Assembly: GCA_017654735.1 (NCBI GenBank)
Contig: JADPYG010000088.1
Location: 1,984,001-2,048,000, forward strand
Length of the DNA: 64,000 nucleotides
From: Vishniacozyma victoriae
Taxonomy: Eukaryota; Basidiomycota; Tremellomycetes; Tremellales; Bulleribasidiaceae
Direction of reading: 5' to 3'
This document shows, in pieces, positions 21,177 through 25,051 of this stretch. Position 1 is the first letter of the stretch; every line of letters begins with the position of its first letter. The position numbers were made by a program, and so were the translations under genes. The notes beneath the pieces were generated by a model. It was given only the letters and a program-made list of their open reading frames with translations. It had not been told where the DNA came from and made no database searches.

Positions 21177-24100
21177 ATGGCCAAGCATCTCGGCCTTCGA
21201 CGTATCAATAGGCGATCATCCTCCCTTCTGCCTCAGTATGGTAAGCACCCCCTCCATCATCACTCAACAGTCGCTGATACGTCATATAGGGTCCCCTCCA
21301 TCCTCTTTACCCATCACGAGGCCCAACTCCGCTGCTGGCTTTTCTTCCCGTCCTTCCAACAAAGCACGAAAAGCCAGGTCCAGGTCGAGAGACCGCGTCT
21401 ACGGACACGCAGACCAGCAACAATCACAAGGGTCCATATCCAACCTCACCGATATCCTTAATTCCTCGACTCGACCGCCAAGTCCCACCTGCGCCATGTA
21501 TCTGCCCGCACAGGAAGTACACATCTGTCCCGTCAACGATTGCGATTGTCGCAAATCCCTCGGTCCCATGAGGCGTTCCATCCAGATTCCTCAACGCATT
21601 GCGGATCTTCGAATCATTCTATTGTGTACCAGCGTCAACTCGTTCACGCAGCTCTGCTATGCTCGATTGAAGGAAAGGGCTTCACCGCTAGGGGATGTCG
21701 CCATCAAGATCTTCTACCCTGGGACCAAGTGTACCAACGGTACCTCGGACTTGATTGACGAGCTTGTCGAGTTTGACACCGATATTATTCTCTGCCCGTT
21801 CTTGACTGCGAAGATCCCTGCGGAGCTTTACAAAAGAGTGAGTCATCATACCTCACACCACCACAGACCTTTTATCATACACCCTAGCACCAGACACTTG
21901 ACCCACATATCCTTACCCCTCGCACCCCACGCCCACAGTGCTGACTCTAGTTCCTGACCCTGGTCGTGCATCCAGGCCCTCCAGGAGACGTCGGACCCTC
22001 AGCTCTCGACTGGACACTTGCCGGCGATGACGGTCTCGAGCCCGATGCAGCCATAGCCATGGGGGCTTTGCGAAAGAACAGTCTACCAGCCGAAATCCGA
22101 TCGCACTGGGGCTGTGTCGTTTTCCAAGCAGGCGAAGAGATGGACAAGGGGCCAGTCTGGGCATGGGAACAGTACGCCCTCCCCAACAATTCCATCACCA
22201 AGGGATACTTGTACCATTTCGGTCATTCGCCAGCCGCTTGGAAAGCATTGGATACCGCCCTCGGTCGAGTTGTCAAGACCGCTGTCGAAGCCAACTTTTA
22301 CGTGAAAAAGGTTATGCTCCACGACGACGTTCCTACCAGGCAGCAACTGGATGAACTCTGTGATGAAGATCTCGAGATCATTCAAGCGCGTGTCTCGACT
22401 CAAGCTCGCTTGCAAGTCGAAGAGGCACCCCAGCCCAGTCAATTCTGGGCTGAACAAATCGCACCTCAACCTGATTGGGGTATTTATCCAGTCAGTCACG
22501 ATCCTGACTCGGAAGTCATCCACTCGTGTGGTACCCTCGCCAATCGACCTTTGATCAAGCCTGCCGACCGAAAAGTCGATTGGGATAATTGGACCGCTGA
22601 AAAGATTGTTCAATTCGTGTCGGCATTTGACTCTCAACCCGGAGCCGCTTTCCACCCCAAGACCGCCTCGACGAAGAAGTTGTTCATCTACGGCGCTCAT
22701 ATCCAATATAATGCAGCTCCTGAAACCACATGGCAACACCTTAACGACGAATGGCAAGATATCCCAAACGGTACCGCCATTGCTGTTCGAGCTGGAGCGG
22801 TATTTTTCAAGACGGAACCTGAAGGCAGTAACGCTGTGGGTGTCTGGATCACTCATGGTCGAGTCCTTAGACCAGTTGGAGCTCCCATTGAACCCAAAAT
22901 TCCCCTTGAATCCGCGTTGATGGATGGTGGTCATGGAGAGATGCTGGCTAGCGCCGTCGAATGGCCTCTGGACTGGACACGTTACAGCAGAGGTGATTGG
23001 CAAGAAATATACGTCAACACTCGGCCTCATCCATTGGGAGTCATCCAATTTGTTTACTGGTCTTTCTAGTACGTGCCTAATGGCAGAATCATCACTGACA
23101 TTAGCAACGGGGCCTTTACTACTGAGAAATGCGAACTCCTTCTCAGAGTGCTCCGATGGGCTGGACATACATTCGAGGACCACAAAGTCGTAGCTCTCGT
23201 CTTGATGGGTGGACACTACTTTTCGAACGGTATCGCTCTAAACGCTATCGAGCACAGGGGCAATGCCGCTCCAAGCCCTGAAGATGCCGATCAATGGGCT
23301 GGTGAAGAGACATGGGCCAATATCAACGCTATCGATAATGTGGTCGAGTACCTCGCCGGGGATACCGAGACGACCCGATCAGCATTCCTCGAGGGCCAAA
23401 GGTCACTGTGCGAAAGGGGAGTGACTACTATCGCGGTATTACGGGGAAATGCGGCTGCAGGTGGAGTTGCCCTCGCAGCCGCTTGCGACGTTGTCATTGC
23501 ATCCGAGAACACTGTCCTCAATCCTGCCTACCGAGCAATGGGTCTACACGGCTCCGAATTTCACTCGTGAGTCCATTTTGTGGGGCCATCACTGACAGTA
23601 GATGGTCATACCGAACGCGATGCGGTGACGAGATGGCAGCTAGCCTTCTCCGAGACATGATCCCAATGACAGCAACGGCCGCCTCCAAGATTGGACTCGT
23701 CGACCTCGTCTACTCTAAGGATAAAGACCACACTATCCCTCCGTTTCATGGACCCGACCTGCATGCCGAGAACGCGGTCGCCTTGTCCATCTGGCCCGAG
23801 GTCTCTTTGAGATGTGCGCCCTGGTGCTTTAGGCGTCCCCATGATCCCACCGAGCTCCCACCTACGATCCTCACCATGCCCCGAAACAAGGTCGCCTACT
23901 TCTCCAGGGGTCGAGCCGATTTTTCTCTCCCTGCCTTGGTCAATTTCCGATACGAGGAACTATCACAGATGCTCCTTGATTGTCACCATCCGGAACGATC
24001 ACAGCGATATCATAGTCGACGAAGGGCTTTTATCCGCAAGACCAAGTGCGGCAAGACACCTTCGCGATATGCCCCTGCCATCAAAGGTCTGGTCCAGGAT

Positions 24101-24889
24101 GAAGAGCACTTTATCGACTTTGATGCGGTCGGAGACTGGGAACGAGGATCCGAATGGGTCAAATTCCTTGACGAGTGCAAACCGCCCATGTTGAAGTTTA
24201 GCGCTTGGACACGAATCATCCTGTTCCCCGAACAAGAAGAGATACTAGGTCGAGCAGATGGATACAGATACGAAGGTCCACTCACCAATTTCGAGAGAAT
24301 GTTACAGAGGGTCGCCATTTGCTGTAGTGCCGATCTATCCCTCAATTTCCAAAGATTGGTCGATCGTTTGGTTGCGGTCACTGCTCCCGATCCTCGATCG
24401 CACATGATCGTTCCCGACAAACCCGTGATTCACAATGCGCCTACCCTTAAAAACTGGATCACTCCACAGCTCGATAATCTCCGACGAAGGCGGGCTAGAA
24501 TCGAACGAGAAGCGAGAGAAGCAGCTCGAGCCGAGTCGCAAGATGAAGATGAAGGTACGCCTTGCATCCCTCATCCTGCCTTTAGGAGACTCGAAATCCC
24601 TCCCGTACCTTCTTTTGGATCCCTTGTCGAAATGTCGACGGCACCTTCATCCGATACCCAGATTGATACGCCTCCACGTCCACGACTACCCTTTTCACGA
24701 TCGGCTTCGCCTGTACCTGGTGAATTGACCCATCTCGGCTCGACTATGCTACAGGATTTAGTCAATTCATGCCGGGTTGAGCCTCCTCCACCTCAATCCC
24801 GACGGTACTCGAGATTGAACACTGGTGACCCCGACTTGCTTTTTCGAGCAGCAGGACCAAGTGAGCGTGTTCGTCAGCCCACAGATTAA
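21177..24889 (+). CDS. HoxX-like formyltransferase/enoyl-CoA-hydratase fusion with C-terminal extension
   Basis: Five exons (21177-21240, 21290-21837, 21951-23068, 23105-23566, 23602-24889) give 1159 residues. Residues ~126-575 resemble the HoxX formyltransferase half: RIILLCTS (~128), DTDIILCPFLTAKIP, VVHPGPPGDVGPSALDW (His211) and GEEMDKGPVWAW (Asp269). At ~575 intron 3 splices to rebuild WSFYNGA, then an enoyl-CoA-hydratase-fold half follows: VLMGGHYFSNGIALN, WANINAIDNVV, VLRGNAAAGGVALAAACD (~689) and NPAYRAMGLHGSEF (~716). The family's C-terminal block is recognisable as YEELSQMLLD...YHSRRRAFIRK. Bacterial HoxX (about 560 residues) makes CO from a one-carbon formyl donor, with CoA bound between the two halves, for the [NiFe]-hydrogenase cofactor. 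Here there is also a Ser/Arg-rich N-terminal extension (~120 residues) and an extra ~275-residue C-terminus that I do not recognise. No signal peptide or SKL. Role in a fungus unknown. Confidence 0.85.
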
Positions 24890-25051
24890 AGTGAATATTC
24901 GCTATTGTAGATCTCATGTCTTTCGTTTCCTCTTTGCTTAGTTGGTTGTCTATTGCCGTAATGATTTCTACATGATGCATTCTCATGATTATACCCACTG
25001 AGCTCATACATTCTTTGCTTTTACAACCTTCTCTTTCCGTATTTATCAATA

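Follow-up and report, generated by a model that had tools for sequence, protein, structure and literature searches.

A HypX/HoxX-like two-domain protein encoded in the genome of the yeast Vishniacozyma victoriae

The window analysed here, a stretch of 64,000 nucleotides from the basidiomycete yeast Vishniacozyma victoriae (Tremellales), covers positions 1,984,001-2,048,000 of contig C11 (JADPYG010000088.1) in the 11.58-Mb assembly GCA_017654735.1. On its forward strand, an open frame extends from an ATG at 21177 to the end of a stop codon at 24889 when five exons are joined by GT..AG splicing of four introns. The predicted product, 1159 codons and one stop if the intron 4 acceptor is at 23601, carries in a single chain an N-terminal formyltransferase domain followed by a C-terminal crotonase domain, as does HypX (HoxX), which the excerpts of the literature available to us describe only as the supplier of carbon monoxide (CO) for [NiFe]-hydrogenase. 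The match to HypX is far beyond chance and confirms the observation of a first-pass annotation made from the sequence, while the interpretation given there, an enzyme of bacterial type put to some non-hydrogenase use in a fungus, is partly supported.

Family membership and catalytic residues

A protein search returned 210 homologues at E≤1e-3, the best of them with E 8e-176, and Aquifex aeolicus HypX was matched with E 1e-49. Pfam recognizes a Formyl_trans_C-like region (PF02911, E 2.3e-7) and a crotonase region (PF00378, residues 664-772, E 3.9e-12). The N-terminal domain lies below the reach of the Formyl_trans_N model, and its assignment therefore rests on the alignment with HypX and on the fold of a relative, P0001. 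In Foldseek comparisons, P0001 matched HypX with E 1.6e-45, as against 4.4e-11 for the best methionyl-tRNA formyltransferase (Fmt), and its N-terminal fold resembles the hydrolase domain of 10-formyl-tetrahydrofolate (10-formyl-THF) dehydrogenase (E 1.7e-10). NCBIfam crotonase models stayed far below their cut-off on the target (best 45 bits versus 280), and no formyltransferase occurs among the best 50 VIA-align matches listed, where crotonases fill the list. Overall, the protein matches HypX better than it matches separate formyltransferase or crotonase families, the reverse of what the first-pass annotation had named as a sign against kinship with HypX. The sequence landmarks quoted there are all present in the spliced translation.

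In the part of their structural study available to us, Muraki et al. 2019 (PMC6802093) propose a route to CO for bacterial HypX in which His74, Asp80 and Asp109 serve formyl transfer to coenzyme A (CoA) and Tyr416 and Glu426 serve decarbonylation; work cited therein reports that the Ralstonia HypX phenotype requires the Tyr and Glu of the crotonase domain. According to a passage in a later review (PMC12134894), the route from formyl-CoA to CO has since been demonstrated for bacterial HypX. We mapped these residues through Cupriavidus necator HypX (H74, D80, D109, Y439 and E449) in an alignment of 27 fungal rows (the target and 26 others) and 19 bacterial rows. All five are kept in the target (H211, D217, D269, Y719 and E728) and in 27 of the 27 fungal rows, and the loss of catalytic residues that could have spoken against the assignment did not occur. 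The sole departure among the bacterial rows is an Arg in place of His74 in Streptomyces muensis (L011 6001-7740), a genome without a HypD match. The ligands of the CoA 3'-phosphate, Ser194, Gln195 and Asn306, correspond to S432, Q433 and N578 in the target and are likewise kept in all 27 fungal rows, the bacterial rows being less strict. In addition, of 106 positions at which the other 26 fungal rows do not vary, the target retains 102. When 16 of the 19 bacterial rows are added to those 26, 44 invariant positions are left, and the target retains all 44; this second count omits three divergent bacterial rows (Nocardia, S. muensis and S. cattleyicolor).

The protein thus has in common with HypX of A. 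aeolicus (PDB 6j0p and variants) and C. necator H16 the domain order, the fold (via P0001), the five catalytic residues, the 3'-phosphate ligands of the Aquifex enzyme and a C-terminal YHxxR element. In contrast to bacterial HypX, the fungal side shows an insert of roughly 20-30 residues ahead of the HWG strand, a long variable C-terminal tail, an intron-bearing gene, a tentative N-terminal extension, and a host genome without detected HypD or [NiFe] large subunit. The hydrolase domain of 10-formyl-THF dehydrogenase, Fmt and ArnA have the N-terminal formyltransferase fold in common with it, but no fused crotonase domain of the HypX kind, and they carry His-Ser-Asp where HypX carries His-Asp-Asp (PMC6802093), as does the Vishniacozyma protein.

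Gene model and genomic setting

Splice forms were enumerated with introns of at least 30 nt allowed, which gave eight in-frame variants; with a minimum of 40 nt no full frame was obtained, introns 3 and 4 being 36 and 35 nt long. Each of the four introns contains a CTGAC or CTGAT branch-like site, as judged by eye, and the exon joints before HPGPPGD and within FYNGA align without gaps to Aquifex HypX. Weaker alternative splice sites exist for introns 1 and 3, and the acceptor of intron 4 is ambiguous: ending at 23598 it yields 1160 residues with HSRWSY, and ending at 23601 it yields 1159 residues with HSWSY. The latter is preferred because homologues read HSYSY and because the alignment with HypX sets the extra Arg against a gap.

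Table 1. Features of the HypX-like gene (window positions)
Feature	Position	Strand	Content
Exon 1	21177..21240	+	residues 1-21; tentative; frame stays open under GT..AG splicing
Intron 1	21241..21289	+	49 nt, GTAAGC..ATATAG
Exon 2	21290..21837	+	N-terminal extension, then start of the formyltransferase domain (NSFTQ, residues 138-142)
Intron 2	21838..21950	+	113 nt, GTGAGT..CTCTAG
Exon 3	21951..23068	+	region of the His/Asp/Asp triad; Formyl_trans_C-like domain (residues 406-496); first part of the crotonase domain; Pfam PF02911 and alignment with Aquifex HypX
Codon His211	21969..21971	+	equivalent of HypX His74
Codon Asp217	21987..21989	+	equivalent of HypX Asp80
Codon Asp269	22143..22145	+	equivalent of HypX Asp109
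Intron 3	23069..23104	+	36 nt, interrupts the FYNGA motif
Exon 4	23105..23566	+	crotonase core: FYNGA, YFSNG, RGNAAAGG, NPAYRAMGLHGSEF; Pfam PF00378 and HypX alignment
Codon Tyr719	23529..23531	+	equivalent of Aquifex Tyr416 / C. necator Tyr439
Codon Glu728	23556..23558	+	equivalent of Aquifex Glu426 / C. necator Glu449
Intron 4	23567..23601	+	35 nt; alternative acceptor ends at 23598
Exon 5	23602..24889	+	last part of the crotonase domain; YHxxR element of the HypX C-terminus; from about 24083 the fungal C-terminal extension; stop

The N-terminal ~110 residues are tentative, and the true start may be M91. Among the 107 fungal-type homologues for which the NSxxQ motif was located, it is preceded by 5-70 residues in 106, versus 137 residues in the Vishniacozyma protein. 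In 71 of the 107 it stands exactly 10 residues after the start, which leaves no room for a presequence and suggests a cytosolic location. These lengths also bear on the idea, taken from the UniRef names of several homologues, that the protein is a mitochondrial Fmt. The labels, the common formyltransferase fold and the first 90 residues from the tentative start, which are Arg-rich and Glu-free, agree with this idea, which is nonetheless hardly credible: the domain begins within 70 residues in all but one of the 107 homologues and at once in 71, Fmt structures are matched at 4.4e-11 or more weakly when HypX is matched at 1.6e-45, and the crotonase domain is fused to the chain, with CoA-binding and catalytic residues retained.

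The surroundings of the gene were examined by a Pfam scan of 16 of the 19 long open reading frames (ORFs) in the window, the other three lying on or opposite the HypX-like gene. Eight of the 16 gave matches and the other eight none. EMP70, Adaptin_N, MMS19, MA3, phosphoacetylglucosamine mutase (AGM1-type) and a SET domain were found at cut-off, Rad9 and DEP below it, and none of the 16 matched a hydrogenase part, in agreement with what had been noted at first pass. Because it has introns and lies among fungal-type neighbour exons (EMP70, adaptin, MMS19, MA3 and AGM1-type), the HypX-like gene is a resident fungal gene; the earlier claim of residence, with five exons joined in an intact frame, holds. 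A formyltransferase gene is present on contig C2 of the same assembly.

Fungal relatives and their C-terminal tail

The HypX/HoxX family is known, and fungal members are already present in databases. The fungal-type proteins considered here are the best 120 of the 210 matches; they are related to one another, and the named ones are fungal, next to many unnamed metagenome entries. From their names, we take the named entries to belong to Tremellales, Trichosporonales and Pezizomycotina. The fungal homologues in this set are 32-44% identical to the Vishniacozyma protein and belong to the same family; they include the Tremellales homologues P0001-P0018 and proteins labelled 'hydrogenase maturation factor HoxX' or similar from Fulvia fulva (P0063), Venturia nashicola (P0033) and Cordyceps javanica (P0039). 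A few are labelled HoxX and several, in UniRef, methionyl-tRNA formyltransferase. The first-pass statement that this enzyme is not known from fungi was therefore too strong as far as databases are concerned, but no paper on the fungal proteins was found in a literature search beyond whose reach most subscription journals lay. In the part of PMC5491491 available, HoxX appears in the reference list only, and PMC4374905 contains a single 'hypX' within a passage on a tyrosine gene cluster and mentions neither hydrogenase nor formyl groups.

A tree was built from 46 sequences, namely the target, 19 bacterial proteins and 26 fungal-type proteins taken from the 120 listed. In it, one branch (100/99) separates the 27 fungal rows from the bacteria, and the target groups with seven Tremellales rows (98/97). 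Should fungi have received the gene from bacteria, as had been suggested, no donor can be named with this thin bacterial sampling.

Behind the HypX core, most of the listed relatives have a variable tail and, close to its end, an F-x-C-Y-Y-like motif, [F/W/S/P/Y]-x-C-aromatic-aromatic-like, which is FSCYY-like in Pezizomycotina; the Tremellomycetes versions are WPCLV, FPCLY or SPCLF. When the last 90 residues are considered, a loose pattern occurs in 109 fungal-type proteins of the 120 listed (shuffled mean 1.7) versus 0 of 120 listed bacterial ones, and a stricter pattern in 93 (shuffled 0.38) versus 3; four further Kwoniella entries have the variant WPCLT. The bacterial set consists of the best 120 of 7999 matches to a bacterial profile, many of them from Streptomyces, and the fungal entries are related, so that these counts are not independent events. 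Likewise, the invariant Cys in alignment A4, which was drawn mostly from motif carriers, is not independent evidence. In the model of an Aureobasidium homologue (P0078), the last 20 residues, including the motif (residues 702-706), have a predicted local distance difference test (pLDDT) score below 50, and therefore the prediction does not place the motif on the core. Partner binding would be its likeliest role.

The start of the tail in the Vishniacozyma protein reads DEE..FD..W..G.EW, which by eye is common to the relatives. Within 24819-24941 of the window (+), the frame adjoining the last coding residues reads TPTCFFEQ, like the relatives' tail motif. A stray 3' intron that would restore the Cys motif through this sequence was rejected on inspection, as no canonical acceptor leads to it and a TGA stands just before it in that frame; the predicted Vishniacozyma protein thus has no such motif.

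The hydrogenase link and possible functions

Neither HypD (PF01924) nor the [NiFe] large subunit (PF00374) gave a match in the host genome assembly, and to our knowledge fungi have no [NiFe]-hydrogenase. Because HypX was not found together with these partners, the protein is filed as a HypX homologue and not as a hydrogenase maturation factor; with no hydrogenase found in the yeast, it probably has another job. CO or formyl-CoA chemistry is a sensible reading of the sequence, and we consider it fairly probable that this is a HypX-type two-domain enzyme that still performs HypX chemistry, now for another acceptor or signal and without a link to the assembly of [NiFe]-hydrogenase. The N-terminal domain would transfer the formyl group of N10-formyl-tetrahydrofolate onto bound CoA, formyl-CoA would swing over to the crotonase-like domain, and this domain would cleave it to CO and CoA. 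In the relatives, the F-x-C-Y-Y-like tail may dock the enzyme to a partner and so replace HypC/HypD. A more specific version, possible but doubtful, is a dedicated fungal CO synthase independent of haem oxygenase, derived from a HypX that was acquired once and freed from hydrogenase, with the disordered tail motif docking to a partner or handing CO or formyl to it.

In bacteria, hypX follows hypD-hypE in plasmid records of C. necator, Rhizobium, Bradyrhizobium and Sulfurimonas. In the records of Mycetohabitans, Acaryochloris and Nocardia, no hyp genes are annotated within 5-8 kb of it, the gene table being incomplete; the S. cattleyicolor record has no annotation in that table. The Mycetohabitans gene (L012 8001-9755), from M. 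endofungorum, which was obtained from Rhizopus hyphae and lives inside the fungus, is a plasmid HypX without annotated hyp genes within 8 kb. In Methylocystis sp. Sn-Cys (L007), HypX has by eye no hyp genes nearby, with a HypD match in the genome, and lies within about 6 kb of ORFs resembling formaldehyde-activating enzyme and methenyl-tetrahydromethanopterin (H4MPT) cyclohydrolase. Of the first six genomes analysed, five have HypD.

Several observations weigh against a retained but hydrogenase-free HypX chemistry. In a survey of 150 Streptomyces genomes, HypD was present in 62 of the 64 with a strong HypX match (E<1e-190) versus 22 of the 86 others (Fisher p 1e-20); two of these 22 have HypD by weak or partial matches, and G029, where the HypX match is partial, was placed among the 86. 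The two HypX-bearing genomes without HypD are S. muensis and G049. If HypX commonly occurred in bacteria without a hydrogenase, the fungal case would be nothing unusual, but this does not hold in Streptomyces, and a hydrogenase-free role would be a departure. The host genome yielded serine hydroxymethyltransferase but neither of the C1-tetrahydrofolate (C1-THF) synthase domains PF01268 and PF02882, C1-THF synthase being the usual source of 10-formyl-THF. The assembly may be incomplete or C1-THF synthase lost, and for this reason the absence of HypD and [NiFe]-hydrogenase is weak evidence. Within the protein itself, Formyl_trans_N scores nothing even at E 1, the stretch around Asp269 alone contributes a weak 5.8 bits to the direct alignment with Aquifex HypX, and Arg131 of HypX, which contacts the 5'-diphosphate, is replaced by His in the target and by Gln in the 10 other Tremellomycetes rows. 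Finally, the C-terminal Cys motif is absent, and the end branch of the target measures 1.25 versus 0.09-0.58 in the other fungal rows, which could reflect relaxed constraint. That the gene is a former fungal HypX decaying in Vishniacozyma would account for these last two features, yet it is highly improbable in view of the 1159 codons that stay open, the plausible introns and the near-complete retention of the invariant positions counted above.

Two other fates of the formyl group were weighed. In one, formyl-CoA produced by the N-terminal half is either hydrolysed by the crotonase half, with release of formate and CoA, or handed on by it, so that on balance formyl groups are removed and tetrahydrofolate is set free again. 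Crotonase-fold domains are capable of thioester hydrolysis, we know of no CO consumer in these fungi, and the resemblance to the hydrolase domain of 10-formyl-THF dehydrogenase is in keeping with such a use. It is nonetheless unlikely, as the Tyr and Glu of HypX are invariant in the fungal rows and the crotonase pocket is indistinguishable from that of HypX at the positions tested. In the other, the enzyme runs in reverse and its N-terminal domain turns formyl-CoA, which in fungi arises from oxalyl-CoA decarboxylation and 2-hydroxyacyl-CoA cleavage, into 10-formyl-THF. Formyl transfer is in principle reversible, and the missing C1-THF synthase leaves room for another source of 10-formyl-THF, but that absence may only mean an incomplete genome, and the decarbonylase residues, needless for salvage, are kept as strictly as the transferase residues. 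We hold this very unlikely.

HypX chemistry uncoupled from hydrogenase assembly is accordingly the reading that we retain. What the analysis describes is a fungal HypX, with a tail in most of its relatives, for which no accompanying hydrogenase was detected. The full catalytic set across two large fungal lineages, in a host whose genome gave no hydrogenase match, suggests a eukaryotic use of folate-derived CO or formyl-CoA, and the C-terminal motif of the relatives offers a handle for identifying a partner. If a dedicated CO synthase were indeed present, Pezizomycotina and Tremellomycetes would have in folate-derived CO (or formyl-CoA) a signal or a metabolite under regulation.
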